The notes below the pieces were generated by a model. It was not told the DNA's origin and ran no database searches. It was given only the letters and a program-made list of their open reading frames with translations. From Terrimicrobiaceae bacterium (GTDB lineage: Bacteria > Verrucomicrobiota > Verrucomicrobiia > Chthoniobacterales > Terrimicrobiaceae): DNA of 64,000 nucleotides. Below are positions 17,586 to 25,724 of the stretch, piece by piece. The stretch covers positions 124,001-188,000 of the forward strand of contig JAGYIV010000014.1 of assembly GCA_018402345.1 (NCBI GenBank), given 5' to 3'. How positions within the stretch are numbered: position 1 is the stretch's first letter; each line of letters starts with the position of its first letter. Both the position numbers and the translations under genes were made by a program.

Positions 17586-17708
17586 AAGTAAAAAATCTTC
17601 GGCGCGGGAAGAGTGGGAATCATGCGGTGGAATTGCAATCGGAATCAGAGCGGGTGTCGAAAAACTTTGCGGTTTCCGTGTCTGGCTGCGGTCGTTAGTT
17701 TTTTATCG

Positions 17709-18929
17709 GTGATCGAGGACAATGACGTGGTTGTGACCGGGTGGGGGTGCGTGACGCCGCTGGGTGGCGATGCGGCATCCACATGGTCGCGTTTGGTGAG
17801 TGGCGAGGGGGTGAGGGGCAGTCTCGGGTGCATTCCGGTGGAGGGATGCCGCGTGGGCGACGGTGCCGAGGCGGTCTTGCCGGAACTTCCATGGATCGGA
17901 GCCAAGGAGGTGGGGCGCTTGAGCCGTGCGTCGAGGCTTGCATTGCCCGCCGCTCGGGAGGCGATGGCCCACGCGGGCTTGCTGGATGCCGATGGGCGGA
18001 GTGTGCGCCCGCTGATCGAAACGAGTGTGAGCACGACGGCAGGCGGCATGGAACTGGGCGAGGCGTTTTTGCGCGGGGTGTGGGGTGGCTCCGAGTGGCG
18101 GGGGCAGGCGGCGCGGGTGGCGAGGTATCCCACGCACCAGCAGATTGGCGACTTGCAGAGGCATCTGGGGTTCTCGGGTCCGGTGATGATCGTTGCCAAC
18201 GCATGTGCGAGCGGGGCGAACGCGATCGGGCACGCGGCGGATTTGATTCGGGCTGGGATGGCAGACATGGTGCTAGCGGGTGGCTACGAGGCGCTTTGCG
18301 AGTTGGTTTTTTGCGGGTTTGACAGTTTGCAGGCGTTGTCGCCGGATGCTTGCCGTCCGTTCGATGTGGATCGCAACGGGTTGATGCTCGGCGAGGGAGC
18401 GGCGTTTCTCGTGATCGAGCGTGCGGGGGCTGCGAAGGCGCGCGGGGCGGTTGCGAGGGCGAGGGTCGCCGGGTATGGCCACACGACGGATGTTTATCAT
18501 ATCACGCGCCCCGAGCCCGCCGGCGAGCCGCTTGAGCGGGCGATGAGGCAGGCGCTCGCGAAGGCGGGCATGGAGCCCGGGGGGATCGGCCACTTGAATG
18601 CGCATGGAACCGGCACGCCATTTAATGACGGGGCGGAGGCAGCGGCATTTGCGCGTGTGTTCGGTGATGGGATCGACGCCGTGCGAACGACGTCCACCAA
18701 GGCGGCGATCGGGCACACGCTCGGGGCCGCCGGGGCGATCGAAGCTGTCTTTTGCATGAAGGCGCTGGAGACCGGTGAATTGCCGCCGCAGATCAACACG
18801 GCGACGCCTGTGGCCGGGCTGGCGAATGCACTGACCCGGCCCGGCGACCGGTTGCAAAAGCCGGCGGTGATGAGTGTGAACCTGGGGTTTGGCGGTTCGA
18901 ACGCCGCATTGGTATTTACGAAATCATGA
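17709..18929 (+). CDS. Beta-ketoacyl synthase (FabF-like) with complete catalytic triad
   Basis: About 406 residues with the thiolase fold of KAS I/II condensing enzymes. The nucleophile Cys is in VANACASGANAIG, and the two His are in LNAHGTGTPFND and AIGHTLGAAGAIEA, so the Cys-His-His triad is complete. A glycine-rich end GFGGSNAALVF is typical. The start is uncertain: the GTG at 17709 precedes the first conserved VVVTGWG, and no ATG is well placed. It overlaps the next ketosynthase-like gene by ATGA. No acyl carrier protein, ketoreductase or dehydratase gene lies beside it, so it is probably not the housekeeping fabF; a specialised fatty acid/polyene product is possible. Confidence 0.85.
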   Translation: MIEDNDVVVTGWGCVTPLGGDAASTWSRLVSGEGVRGSLGCIPVEGCRVGDGAEAVLPELPWIGAKEVGRLSRASRLALPAAREAMAHAGLLDADGRSVRPLIETSVSTTAGGMELGEAFLRGVWGGSEWRGQAARVARYPTHQQIGDLQRHLGFSGPVMIVANACASGANAIGHAADLIRAGMADMVLAGGYEALCELVFCGFDSLQALSPDACRPFDVDRNGLMLGEGAAFLVIERAGAAKARGAVARARVAGYGHTTDVYHITRPEPAGEPLERAMRQALAKAGMEPGGIGHLNAHGTGTPFNDGAEAAAFARVFGDGIDAVRTTSTKAAIGHTLGAAGAIEAVFCMKALETGELPPQINTATPVAGLANALTRPGDRLQKPAVMSVNLGFGGSNAALVFTKS

Positions 18930-19918
18930 GAAACGGGATGGGCATTTGCAGCGTTGGCGTTTCCTGTCCCGGAGGGGTGGGGGTGGAGGCGCTTCTGGAT
19001 ACCGCGGGGTGGCCTGTGGAGGGTGTGCCGGAGGTCGGGAGGCGGGGGGCGATTCGACAGGTGGCCAAGATCGATTGTGGCAGTGAGCCGTTCAATCGCT
19101 GGCGCATGACGCCGCGGCTGCGGCGGGCGAGTCCTCTTTCGCACCACCTGATCGAGGCGGTCGCGCAATGTCTCGAGGCCAGGCCCGGGATCGATCGGGC
19201 GCGGGTCGGGGTGGTCGGGGCGTTTTTTCTCGGGGCGCTCGAGTATTCGGTGCGTTTTTACAAGGGGCTGACCGACGATGGACGGCGCTTTGCGAGTCCG
19301 GTGTTGTTTCCGGAAACGGTGGTGAATTCGCCGCTGAGTCATGTGGTCGCCGAGTTGGGGATTGGCGGTCCGGTGTATTCGCAGACCGGCGACACGTCGT
19401 GCTGGGCCTCTGCGTTGCGCACCGCACAGGTGTGGTTGGCGAACGGGGATGCCGACCATGTGGTGGTGGTGGGAGCGGAGGAATTCAATGCGCACGAGTT
19501 GGATGGGCTGGGGGCGGTGCGGTGGTTCGAGGGAGGAGCGGTATTGCGTCTGGCCGAGGGGGCAGGGGCCGTGCTGCTCGGGCCGCAGGGATCGGATCAA
19601 CTGGCGAGAATCACGCGAGTGGTGGACGGCTTTTGCTATCGCACGCGTGGCGAGGCGGTGGAGGCGGCGCGGGGATGCCTCGCGGCGATTGGCGGGGGTG
19701 CTCGTTTGGCCGATACGGCTTCGACGTGGATACGGCCCGTGGTGGACGGGCTGCTTGGAGGAAATACCGTGTTGCCTTTGTCGGCAGGGCCTCGTTACGA
19801 GGCGTTCACGGCATCCTGTGCCTGGAACACGATCCTCGCCACGAGGTCGGCCGGGCCGGTGGTGGTTCCCTATTGGGGGCTTTCCCACCAGATCGGGGCG
19901 GCCGAGATCATGTGTTGA
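18926..19918 (+). CDS. Degenerate beta-ketoacyl synthase-like partner protein
   Basis: A 330-residue thiolase-fold protein coupled by ATGA to the ketosynthase upstream. A Cys is retained in GDTSCWASALRTAQ and a His in LSHQIGAAEIM (equivalent to the GHTLGAAG histidine), but the HGTGTxxND segment is missing and the protein is about 80 residues shorter than a standard KAS. This recalls the KS-alpha/chain-length-factor pairs of type II polyketide and aryl polyene pathways, although here the Cys is kept rather than lost. Function as a heterodimer partner is inferred from gene coupling. Confidence 0.7.
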   Translation: MRNGMGICSVGVSCPGGVGVEALLDTAGWPVEGVPEVGRRGAIRQVAKIDCGSEPFNRWRMTPRLRRASPLSHHLIEAVAQCLEARPGIDRARVGVVGAFFLGALEYSVRFYKGLTDDGRRFASPVLFPETVVNSPLSHVVAELGIGGPVYSQTGDTSCWASALRTAQVWLANGDADHVVVVGAEEFNAHELDGLGAVRWFEGGAVLRLAEGAGAVLLGPQGSDQLARITRVVDGFCYRTRGEAVEAARGCLAAIGGGARLADTASTWIRPVVDGLLGGNTVLPLSAGPRYEAFTASCAWNTILATRSAGPVVVPYWGLSHQIGAAEIMC

Positions 19919-21693: not shown

Positions 21694-22551
21694 TTGGAAG
21701 CACGGAAAGTCGTTATTGCCGGCTGCGGTTACCTCGGTGAGGCCGCAGCCGGTTTTTTTTTGAGTGCCGGGTGGAGGGTCTGCGGGTTGTGCGGGAGTGA
21801 TGAATCCGCCAAGCGGCTTGAGGGATTGCCATTTCCTGTGATGGCGAGGGATATCTCGCAACCGCTCGGGGATGCGGGGGAATGGAGGCAACCGGATTTG
21901 TTGATCCACTGCGCGAGTTCTGGGAGGGGCGGCGAGGAGGCCTACCGGGCGGTGTATCTCGAGGGGCTGAAACATCTGATCGCCGCCTATGACCCCGGGA
22001 AGGTTCTTTTTACCGGAAGCACATCTGTTTACGCGCAGGTTGACGGTGGGTTGGTCACGGAGGAATCCGTGGTGGAGCCCGATCGTGCGACCGGGCGGAT
22101 ATTGCTCGAGGCCGAGGCGGTGGCGTTGGCCGCCGGGGGAACTGTGGCGCGCCTGTCTGGAATCTACGGGCCGGGAAGGTCCGTGTTGTTGAGGAAATTT
22201 TTGGAAGGCACCGCGGTGCTCGAGGTAGGCGGGGGGCGGTGGATCAATCAAATCCACCGCGATGATGCGGCACGGGCGCTGGTGGTGCTGGGCGATGCTC
22301 AGGCCGGGATTTACAATGTGTCCGACAACACGCCCGCCACGCAGTGCGAGGTCTATGGGTGGATCGCCGGGCACTTGGGCCGCCCGATGCCGCCGGAGGG
22401 GCCTGCCGACATTGCGCGCAAGCGCGGTTGGACCAGCAAGCGGGTGGACAATGCCAGATTGCGGGCTACGGGGTGGGCGCCGATTTTTCCCTCCTACCGC
22501 GAGGCGCTGCCCGGTTTGGTGGGGGCGCTCCGGCAAGGGAGCCAAGATTGA
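21694..22551 (+). CDS. NAD(P)-dependent epimerase/dehydratase-like (extended SDR) protein
   Basis: A 285-residue Rossmann protein with an N-terminal VVIAGCGYLGEAAAGFF dinucleotide-binding motif, LLIHCASSG, FTGSTSVYAQVDGG and an INQIHRDDAARALV segment typical of extended SDRs (YeeZ-like subgroup). The Tyr-x-x-x-Lys catalytic pair is not in the usual place: the position after SVY lacks a clear lysine. The only start in reach of the conserved motif is TTG at 21694, 2 bases after the rpsU stop, which suggests read-through transcription from rpsU. An atypical epimerase-like enzyme takes part in some bacterial ceramide pathways; that role here is only a possibility. Confidence 0.75.
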   Translation: MEARKVVIAGCGYLGEAAAGFFLSAGWRVCGLCGSDESAKRLEGLPFPVMARDISQPLGDAGEWRQPDLLIHCASSGRGGEEAYRAVYLEGLKHLIAAYDPGKVLFTGSTSVYAQVDGGLVTEESVVEPDRATGRILLEAEAVALAAGGTVARLSGIYGPGRSVLLRKFLEGTAVLEVGGGRWINQIHRDDAARALVVLGDAQAGIYNVSDNTPATQCEVYGWIAGHLGRPMPPEGPADIARKRGWTSKRVDNARLRATGWAPIFPSYREALPGLVGALRQGSQD

Positions 22552-22588: not shown

Positions 22589-23275
22589 ATGGCAAATATT
22601 ATTATCACCGGCGCATCGAGTGGAATCGGCGCCGAACTGGCCAAAATCCTCGCCGGTCGGGGCGAGCGGGTTTTTCTAACCGGACGGTCCGAGTCAAAAT
22701 TGCAGGCGCTGGGATTGGATGCTCCCGTGCACGCCGCAGATCTCACTGCGCCGGGGGCTGCCGAGAAGGTGGTCGCCGCGGCTGTGGAAGCGCTCGGCGG
22801 GGTGGATGTCGCGATCCACTGCGCCGGGGTGGGCTTGATCAAATCCGCCGCCGAGACCACGGATGCGGACTTCACGCAGGTCATGAACATCAATGCCCGT
22901 GCGACATTTCTTTTTGCCCGGGAGGTGTGCAAGGTCATGGCCGCGGCTAAGCGGGGGTTGTTCATCACGATCCCGGGCATTCTTGGAAAGGCGCCCATGA
23001 AAAACGCATCCGCCTATGTGGCAAGCAAGTATGCTGTGACCGGAATGGTCAAGTGCTTTGCTCAGGAATACCAGCGCTCGGGGGTGAGGTTTTGCCTGTT
23101 CCACCTCGGGGGTGTGGACACGCCGTTCTGGGACAATATTCAGATGGCGGTGCAGCGCGAGCGGATGATCCCCGTGGCGACCGCCGCCGGCTTGGTGATG
23201 CAGGCGATCGACGCCCCGCCCCATCTGGTGCTCAGCGAGGTTGTCATGCAACCCGAGAGCCATCAGTTGGTGTAG
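22589..23275 (+). CDS. Classical short-chain dehydrogenase/reductase lacking the usual catalytic serine
   Basis: A 228-residue SDR with the NAD(P)-binding TGASSGIGAELAKIL, an HCAGVG strand (NNAG equivalent) and the catalytic YVASK (Tyr and Lys). The strand that usually reads N-I-S-S is TIPG here, so the catalytic serine 13 residues before the Tyr appears to be Gly. The nearest genes downstream encode a serine palmitoyltransferase-like enzyme and an acyltransferase, so a 3-ketosphinganine reductase role is conceivable but unproven. The spacing to that gene is about 70 bases. Confidence 0.78.
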   Translation: MANIIITGASSGIGAELAKILAGRGERVFLTGRSESKLQALGLDAPVHAADLTAPGAAEKVVAAAVEALGGVDVAIHCAGVGLIKSAAETTDADFTQVMNINARATFLFAREVCKVMAAAKRGLFITIPGILGKAPMKNASAYVASKYAVTGMVKCFAQEYQRSGVRFCLFHLGGVDTPFWDNIQMAVQRERMIPVATAAGLVMQAIDAPPHLVLSEVVMQPESHQLV

Positions 23276-23347
23276 GATCCCAGCGCGTCCTCTGAAGAGC
23301 GCGCGCAGGAAAAGATATTTACTTCATTGCGGGAATTGCAAGTCTTC

Positions 23348-24700
23348 ATGAAAATACCAATGACGAAAGGACCGAGAGACATCTTCCAAAAGTGCCGCGA
23401 TTACCGCGACACGGCCGACGCCCGTGCGCAAGGGTTTTATCCCTACTTTCGTTCCATTGAGGAACCTCATGGAAACTACGTGATCTGCGACGGCGAGCGG
23501 AAGATCATGATCGGGTCGAACAACTACCTTGGCCTCGCGCAGGATCCGAGGGTGGTCGAGGCCGCCTGCGCGGCGACGCGTCAATACGGGGCGGGGTGCA
23601 CGGGGTCGAGGTTGTTGAATGGCACAATCAAACTGCATGTCGAATTGGAGGAGGCGCTGGCTGCGTTTCTCGGGCGCGAGGATGCGATCCTCTTTTCGAC
23701 CGGATTTTTCGCCAACCAAGGGGCGCTCATCGCGCTCACTGAAGATGGGGATGCGATTCTTTGCGACCGCGAGAACCACGCGAGCATCATTGACGGGTGC
23801 AATTTCGCGCCCGGGAAGTTGATTCCCTTTCGGCACAATTCCGCCACGTCGCTCGAAAACCGTCTCAAGCGACTGCCCGAGGAGGCTGGGCGACTGGTAA
23901 TTTTGGACGGCGTGTTCAGCATGTCTGGTGACATCGCGAACCTTCCGGAAATCAATGAAGTAGCGAAAAGCCACAAGGCGGTGATGTATGTCGACGAGGC
24001 CCATTCACTGGGCGTGCTCGGGCATCAGGGGCGTGGGGTGGTGGATCACTTCGGACTCAACGACGAGGTCGAGATCGTGATGGGCACCTTCTCGAAGTCG
24101 CTTGGATCGATGGGTGGGTTCGTGGCCGGCGACGCACAGATGATCGAGTATTTGAAACATCGCGCGCGGTGTTTGATTTTCACCGCTGCTCTGGCGCCGG
24201 CCGTGGTTGGCGGCGTGAAAAAAGCGCTCGAGTTGATGCAGGAGGAGACTTGGCGCATCGACCAGCTTTGGAAAAACACCCGTAAGATGCACGAGGGATT
24301 CAAGAGGATCGGTTTCAAGATCGGCACCACACAGACGCCGATTGTCCCGATCCTGATCGGGAGCGAGGCCAAGGCGTTTGTGTTCACGCAGCGGTTGTTC
24401 GAGGAGGGAGTGTTTGCAACACCCGCGATCTATCCCGCGGTTCGCTACGGCGAGGCGATCGTGCGGACAAGTTTCATGGCCACCCACACCGACGAGGATC
24501 TTGACCGGGTGCTTGAGATTTTTGAAAAACTCGCCCGTGAGCTTGGAACCTTCGACGACCCTGCCTATGCCAATCCCGGCCGCCGCAAAAACATTTTCGA
24601 TTTCCGTTTGCCGGACTCCCTCGCAGAGGAGGCTGTTCGAGAGAACGGCGGAAGCCATTCACAAAACGGATCCGGTCTTCACGCCGCCGTTTCCCGGTAG
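23348..24700 (+). CDS. Serine palmitoyltransferase-like alpha-oxoamine synthase
   Basis: A 450-residue PLP enzyme of the alpha-oxoamine synthase family, which condenses an amino acid with an acyl thioester. The internal Lys250 in GTFSKSLGSMGG binds PLP, and DEAHSLGVLGHQGRG and NHASIIDG are active-site strands. YPYFRSIE, GSNNYLGL, GAGCTGSRLLNGT, VFSMSGDIANLPE and AGDAQMIEYLKHRAR agree closely with bacterial serine palmitoyltransferases and better than with BioF or Kbl. The first committed step of sphingolipid synthesis is therefore the favoured role. The start at ATG 23348 is chosen, with 23360 as an alternative. The last 45 codons overlap the next gene in another frame. Confidence 0.8.
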   Translation: MKIPMTKGPRDIFQKCRDYRDTADARAQGFYPYFRSIEEPHGNYVICDGERKIMIGSNNYLGLAQDPRVVEAACAATRQYGAGCTGSRLLNGTIKLHVELEEALAAFLGREDAILFSTGFFANQGALIALTEDGDAILCDRENHASIIDGCNFAPGKLIPFRHNSATSLENRLKRLPEEAGRLVILDGVFSMSGDIANLPEINEVAKSHKAVMYVDEAHSLGVLGHQGRGVVDHFGLNDEVEIVMGTFSKSLGSMGGFVAGDAQMIEYLKHRARCLIFTAALAPAVVGGVKKALELMQEETWRIDQLWKNTRKMHEGFKRIGFKIGTTQTPIVPILIGSEAKAFVFTQRLFEEGVFATPAIYPAVRYGEAIVRTSFMATHTDEDLDRVLEIFEKLARELGTFDDPAYANPGRRKNIFDFRLPDSLAEEAVRENGGSHSQNGSGLHAAVSR

Positions 24701-25724
24701 CGTTGCGAAATTTCTCGACCCGGATTCCACATTCCACCGGCGGCACGGCACGATCACGGCGTTTGTGGCCGAGCGCGGCGGCAGGCCGATCGGCCGGATC
24801 GCTGCGATTATCAACCGCTCGCACAACAATTATCATAACGACCGCGCGGGATTTTTCGGATTTTTCGAGTGTGTGAACGAGCCCGAGGTTGCCCGGGCGT
24901 TGTTTGAAAGAGCTTCGTTCATCCTGCGCGAAGCAGGCATGGAGACCCTCCGTGGCCCCTACAATCCCAGCATAAATGACGACTGTGGCGTGCTCATGAA
25001 TAGCTTCGACAAGCCGACAGTGATCGGCTTGCCGTGGAATCCCAGCTACTACGCCGGGCTGTTGGAGGGGCTGGGGTTCGCGAAGGCGCGCTCGCTTTAT
25101 GTGATGAGCCTCGCCATACACCGACTTCAACCACCCGAGCGGTTCGTGCGAATCATCGAGCGCTTGAAAAAGCGCGCCAATCTCACGATGCGACCCTTTG
25201 AGTTGTCGAAGCTTGATCGGGAACTCGACATCGTCCGCCGCGTCTACAATGCCACGCTGGAGCGGAACTGGGGCTTCGTTCCCATCGGCATCGAGGATTT
25301 AATGGATTCCGCCGGCGACCTCCGCGCCATCGCCGATCCGCGCCTGCTCCTGATCGGCGAGTCGAACGGGCAATCGGCCGGCGTCGCTCTTACTCTACCG
25401 AACTTCAACGAAATCCTCCACGCCGCCCGAAAAACGCCCCACTGGCTCCGGCTCGCCCACATTTTTTTCCTGATGAAAACGCGCAAAATCCAGACCTGCC
25501 GCCAGACCGTGCTCGGCGTCGTTCCGGAATTTCGCGACCGAGGCTTCCACACCTGGCTCGTCCACGAGCAATTCCGCGAGGCCAAGGAACACCACACCCA
25601 TGTCACCCTCGGCTGGCTCGAGGACACCAACGCTGAAATCATCGAAATTTGCCGTATCGTCGGCGGCGAAACCGACCGCGAGTGGGGGATTTTTGAGAAA
25701 ACGCTGGAACAGTTCGACTCATGA
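24567..25724 (+). CDS. YghO/GNAT-like acyltransferase candidate
   Basis: About 385 residues. Visible conserved parts are RPIGRIAAIINRSHN, DRAGFFGFFECV, RGPYNPSINDDCGVL, YNPxYYAGLLEGLGF-type sequence and a second acyltransferase-like half ending VVPEFRDRGFHTWLVHEQF and LGWLEDTNAEII, matching the YghO family of acyl-CoA N-acyltransferase-like proteins. The ATG at 24567 lies inside the upstream gene, giving a 134-base overlap in a different frame. Bacterial ceramide synthase of Caulobacter is described as a GNAT-type protein, so with the SPT-like gene immediately upstream this is a candidate N-acyltransferase of sphinganine. Assignment is by context. Confidence 0.65.
   Translation: MPIPAAAKTFSISVCRTPSQRRLFERTAEAIHKTDPVFTPPFPGSVAKFLDPDSTFHRRHGTITAFVAERGGRPIGRIAAIINRSHNNYHNDRAGFFGFFECVNEPEVARALFERASFILREAGMETLRGPYNPSINDDCGVLMNSFDKPTVIGLPWNPSYYAGLLEGLGFAKARSLYVMSLAIHRLQPPERFVRIIERLKKRANLTMRPFELSKLDRELDIVRRVYNATLERNWGFVPIGIEDLMDSAGDLRAIADPRLLLIGESNGQSAGVALTLPNFNEILHAARKTPHWLRLAHIFFLMKTRKIQTCRQTVLGVVPEFRDRGFHTWLVHEQFREAKEHHTHVTLGWLEDTNAEIIEICRIVGGETDREWGIFEKTLEQFDS

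Follow-up and report, generated by a model that had tools for sequence, protein, structure and literature searches.

Results

Gene content of the locus

The window, a 64,000-nucleotide stretch of a Terrimicrobiaceae genome (G000:C8:124001-188000), belongs to an assembly of 3.14 Mb in 17 contigs with a completeness rating of 96%; positions below are those of the window unless a contig or locus is named. A preliminary description of this DNA had proposed a ceramide module at the locus, and the three open reading frames central to it, an SDR gene, an alpha-oxoamine synthase gene (spt) and the gene that follows (bcerS), were all found in place (Table 1).

Table 1. Features of the putative ceramide locus
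Feature	Position	Strand	Basis
Epimerase-like SDR; not CerR, outside the module	21694..22551	+	CerR profile, 37 bits (C2 gene: 197)
SDR gene ending 72 nt before spt; not a conserved pathway part	22589..23275	+	CerR profile, synteny, Gly
spt, predicted serine palmitoyltransferase of 450 aa, a PLP-dependent alpha-oxoamine synthase	23348..24700	+	NF047600, S. multivorum SPT, tree, motifs
Out-of-phase spt/bcerS overlap, 134 nt	24567..24700	+	134 nt also in G125, L100 and L101
bcerS, predicted tandem-GNAT N-acyltransferase of the YghO family (385 aa), ortholog of bacterial ceramide synthase	24567..25724	+	blastp, profile, AlphaFold2 model

A predicted serine palmitoyltransferase

The spt reading frame opens at ATG 23348, the alternative starts being a TTG 21 nt before it and another ATG 12 nt after it, and its product ends in a tail of ~45 aa past the matched SPT core. 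When the protein, translated from 23327, was scanned against NCBIfam, the top model was NF047600 (serine palmitoyltransferase) at 499.7 bits, followed by BioF (394) and glycine C-acetyltransferase (385). The score of this best model lies below its curated cut-off of 640 bits, and Spt is therefore not filed in the SerpalmtaseCFB equivalog; E. coli SPT, used as a control, clears the cut-off of its own model (599 vs 500). Among PDB sequences the S. multivorum SPT matched best (410 bits over 385 residues), Kbl enzymes reached at most 269 bits, cysteate-C-fatty acyltransferase 229 and BioF ~200, and chain 8s1y, annotated as BioF/Kbl, scored much the same as the S. wittichii SPT (309 and 308 bits, respectively). 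In an alignment with known SPTs the FSKS lysine, HAS, DEAH and GSRxxNGT are all kept, and GSRxxNGT, FSTG and FSKS are common to the three known SPTs compared and missing in the BioF/Kbl rows. We take the FSKS lysine to be the PLP lysine and assume the corresponding roles for the other aligned residues. Compared with the S. multivorum SPT (PDB 3a2b, 8guh), the window protein thus keeps the motifs considered and differs in its extra C-terminal tail, which overlaps bcerS.

In a 77-row tree, in which outgroup branches are long and the inner order is insecure, the window Spt lies among bCerS-linked enzymes together with members of its order. The S. multivorum, S. wittichii and E. coli SPTs belong to the same large set, and E. 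coli BioF, Kbl, the Thermus enzyme and a paralog from the window's own genome (L005, C2:360061) lie outside it. Support is only 86/75 for the set of 65 rows containing the window Spt and the three known SPTs, and 99/96 for the next wider set. A BioF- or Kbl-type enzyme that stands by chance beside an unrelated acetyltransferase, to which the common fold and the strong matches to BioF and Kbl models could point, is contradicted by this tree, by the order of the bit scores and by the linkage of spt and bcerS across phyla described below, and the separate paralog branches outside with BioF and Kbl; we consider this explanation extremely improbable. The earlier statement that the gene at 23348 carries the hallmarks of SPT is upheld by the top scores of the SPT model and the S. 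multivorum enzyme, by the shared stretches and by the tree, in which clustering with Kbl or BioF is absent. We conclude that 23348-24700 encodes a predicted serine palmitoyltransferase.

A different amino acid (alanine, glycine or other) might be used by this alpha-oxoamine synthase, the product then being a 1-deoxyceramide or related N-acyl aminolipid. Substrate choice is not legible from the present data, and PMC11334938 reports that Spt accepts alanine and proposes further amino acids. However, the window protein shares GSRxxNGT, FSTG and FSKS with the known SPTs and scores far higher with SPT than with cysteate-C-fatty acyltransferase, and we regard the use of another amino acid as unlikely.

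A YghO-family ceramide synthase ortholog

The 24567 protein has no match in Pfam or NCBIfam, a blank that is uninformative since E. coli YghO likewise matches nothing in either. Near full-length blastp alignment with E. coli YghO spans 361 columns at 23.5% identity (E 8e-40). A YghO-family profile built without E. coli retrieved YghO at 397 bits as the sole match among 713 ORFs from five E. coli stretches, and in four other genomes it gave one strong match each (453-515 bits), the next best score anywhere being 20 bits. In this comparison, where E. coli YghO took the place of the Caulobacter bCerS suggested in the preliminary description, the gap between family members and other proteins is hence hundreds of bits wide. 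Among the matches listed, the closest named relatives are proteins of Spartobacteria bacterium AMD-G4 (75%), Verrucomicrobia Bin_73_16 (75%) and a bin of the Terrimicrobiaceae (53%), which would fit a verrucomicrobium of the Chthoniobacterales type.

A sequence search of the 24567 protein against the PDB gave no significant match, and its AlphaFold2 model (pLDDT 89, pTM 0.88) is a tandem GNAT. Its best match in VIA was 7q3a_A (305 residues at 3.2 A, Z 24.3), and N-myristoyltransferases, which transfer long acyl groups from CoA to an amine, matched with Z ~16.7 and an rmsd of ~4.5 A over ~280 residues; a predicted fold in common with these enzymes is no proof of bCerS function. No ceramide synthase structure is among the Foldseek or VIA matches listed, which proves nothing. 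The assignment of this gene as a GNAT/YghO-type candidate is thus confirmed by alignment, profile and model, and we conclude that 24567-25724 encodes a full-length YghO relative and predicted bCerS ortholog. PMC9386255 describes yghO (ECD_02850) and Caulobacter CC_1154 as the genes for the acyl-CoA N-acyltransferase that acts in dihydroceramide synthesis.

The overlap between spt and bcerS recurs at the same length in three relatives (Table 1) and measures 149 nt in G280. Read in two frames, it encodes the SPT tail (GTFDDP...PGRR...FDF), whose conservation extends to G280, together with the N-terminal 45 residues of bCerS; in the f69 genomes of the order it is absent. Such an overlap may couple the translation of Spt and bCerS.

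Linkage of spt and bcerS across genomes

Relatives of bCerS were found in named genome contigs of many phyla, and the best 80 of at least 563, which include named Myxococcaceae, were used for loci. In 58 of these 80 spt lies within the fetched flank; CerR is in the flank in 45/80 and both genes are in 41/80, whereas only one locus of the 80 has an SDR resembling that of the window. The remaining 22 have no SPT within the fetched flank, partly owing to contig ends.

Within the order, a YghO/bCerS family match was present in 34/57 genomes (strong in 32/57, and in 8/8 of the window's family), and across the phylum 35/288 genomes match the bCerS protein. A synteny sample of 33 loci came from 31 of the 32 strong-match genomes, the window's own genome being left out. 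Here spt adjoins or lies near bCerS in 30/33 loci, at ~5-7 kb in two of these, and in the six f2 genomes the SPT-like gene is of a divergent type. The three loci without spt are G299 and second bCerS copies in G326 and G332. These second copies (L198 and L200, respectively) are of the window's family and have no SPT-like gene nearby. Such copies, and the loci without SPT nearby, suggest that the YghO family may have further amine substrates besides the long-chain base.

Several relatives carry variant loci. In four loci of f9, of the same class (L049:5645-9619, L051:5637-9737, L054:10333-14292, L055:10942-14991), a fusion protein of 1319-1366 aa is encoded directly before YghO/bCerS; the two that were scanned contain a ketosynthase, a carrier domain, a dehydratase-like part and an SPT-like enzyme, and the SPT-like part branches outside the set of the window Spt in the 77-row tree. 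In PMC12134224, sphinganines are made by SgaA, a PKS, together with SgaB, an SPT-like enzyme on its own polypeptide, whereas in f9 the two parts are apparently joined in one polypeptide. A CDP-alcohol phosphatidyltransferase-like gene, perhaps for a head-group enzyme, separates the divergent SPT-like gene from YghO/bCerS in L043, L044, L211 and L213 (f2, same order). In L048 (G101) a polyketide-synthase-like ORF of 2522 aa (L048:7820-17750) neighbours the genes for YghO/bCerS and CerR, and no SPT-like gene was detected in the 19 kb of the locus; L047:158-4464 (G185) holds in a row a small ORF that looks ACP-like by eye, an SDR gene, an SPT-like gene and YghO/bCerS.

The CerR homolog is encoded on another contig

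The proposal that the SDR gene at 22589 or the epimerase-like gene at 21694 provides the CerR-type reductase did not hold. With a CerR profile of 43 sequences, this order excluded, their products score 31 and 37 bits, respectively, whereas linked or orthologous CerR proteins score 183-209 (209, 192 and 183 bits for genes of G280, G125 and L102) and a gene of the window's own genome, at G000:C2:783674-784669, scores 197. CerR among the window neighbours is ruled out by these scores. In the Terrimicrobiaceae locus L102, CerR follows immediately after bCerS and is 48% identical to the C2 protein, and a CerR homolog lies directly after bCerS in 19 of the 33 order loci. When the C2 protein was searched against seven genomes in which no CerR was seen beside spt, the window's own included, all seven gave a match, weaker in G292 and G299 (37-39%); in the f2 genomes G013 and G166 the CerR alignment gave background scores only. 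Synteny and this search together indicate that the arrangement spt-bcerS-cerR is common in the order, and that cerR lies apart from the other two genes in G303 and in the genus of the window. The order thus shows an spt-bcerS-cerR operon, from which one gene has moved to another locus in one genus.

The SDR gene beside spt has orthologs (76-81%) in the three other members of the genus searched and none at E <= 1e-40 in four other genomes of the family. In none of the three does the ortholog lie beside spt, although in two there is a contig end nearby, on the other side; on synteny, the SDR is rejected as a conserved component of the operon. In the window and in G125 its product has a glycine at the column of what we take to be the catalytic serine, and keeps the Tyr and Lys of YxxxK, presumably in their usual roles. 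The SDR gene may be co-transcribed with spt in the window.

One of the two neighbours might still be the reductase, as a local CerR or as a 3-ketosphinganine reductase like BT_0972, given that the SDR gene closely precedes spt in the same orientation and that an SDR-type 3-ketosphinganine reductase is known in Bacteroides (PMC9278070). Against this stand the low CerR profile scores, the true CerR homolog on C2, the separation of SDR from spt within the genus and its absence from the four family genomes at the above threshold, and the glycine in place of serine, and we find this very unlikely. It is likewise improbable, if slightly less so, that with cerR gone from the operon in this genus, the genus-restricted SDR that stands beside spt in the window's lineage and lacks the usual catalytic serine has been taken on as an additional cytoplasmic enzyme to modify the long-chain base, in a two-reductase pathway or for an unusual base chemistry. 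Nothing ties the SDR at 22589 to the ceramide pathway.

Acyl donor

The preliminary description had seen no dedicated ACP ligase, which holds across the whole assembly: no homolog of AasR, the dedicated acyl-ACP ligase, was found, the best match being 30.9 bits over about 80 residues. In line with this, the Spt donor would be acyl-CoA or a housekeeping acyl-ACP. Three ACP-type domains are present in the assembly, none in the window; one, within C2:296000-308000, lies among genes that look lipid-related by eye. Nothing was found that links the AMP-binding fragments and ACP at C4:433389 and C4:435952 to spt. A FabF-like ketosynthase gene and an overlapping, diverged ketosynthase-like ORF occupy 17613-19918 of the window; they were rejected as part of the module, as opposite-strand genes intervene before spt and a ketosynthase match occurs in 1/80 bCerS loci.

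Discussion

Of the proposed ceramide module, the Spt and YghO/bCerS parts stand on profile, tree and synteny, and the assignment of the neighbouring SDRs as the CerR-type reductase falls on the profile. We consider it probable (about 0.84) that the known bacterial route to ceramide is represented in the window by its first two enzymes and that the third is encoded elsewhere in the genome. This reading draws on homology, tree placement, conserved linkage and the presence of all three genes; the unreached NF047600 cut-off, the modest identity to YghO and the loci without SPT count against it. Spt would condense L-serine with a long-chain acyl thioester, both predicted substrates, to 3-keto-dihydrosphingosine, bCerS would N-acylate this intermediate, and CerR from C2 would reduce the ketone, the predicted product being a dihydroceramide. 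Acylation before reduction is an order borrowed from Caulobacter: PMC11087976 places Spt and bCerS in the cytoplasm and CerR in the periplasm and favours that order, and also notes that another group has put forward the eukaryotic one. Both orders are compatible with the genes in this genome.

In Caulobacter and E. coli BL21 the cluster comprises spt, bcerS (= aca = yghO), cerR (= epi), acpR and aasR. Homologs of Spt, YghO/bCerS and CerR are likewise all present in the window's genome, but no aasR homolog was found there and cerR is unlinked. The window Spt resembles the Bacteroidota model more than the proteobacterial ones, and the three-part Rhodobacterial system of Spt, AcpR and AasR differs from this genome in its dedicated acyl-ACP ligase. 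Myxococcaceae loci (L115, L129, L162 and others) have spt then bcerS as in the window, with cerR next, whereas cerR is at another place in the window's genus.

Ceramides were long regarded as rare in bacteria. Among the papers listed on Verrucomicrobia or Chthoniobacter and sphingolipids, PMC11334938 was the one study recognised as dealing with bacterial producers; it reports Spt-like proteins in 22 Verrucomicrobiota MAGs from the Black Sea, which share phylum and enzyme family with the window and are marine metagenome bins. As Spt-like genes in Verrucomicrobiota are known from that study, our finding is ordinary in kind, solid but expected. Its modest additions are the wide distribution across the order, the spt/bcerS overlap and the moved cerR. 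Since the bCerS gene occurs commonly in the genomes sampled from the order, this lineage is a plausible, testable sphingolipid producer.
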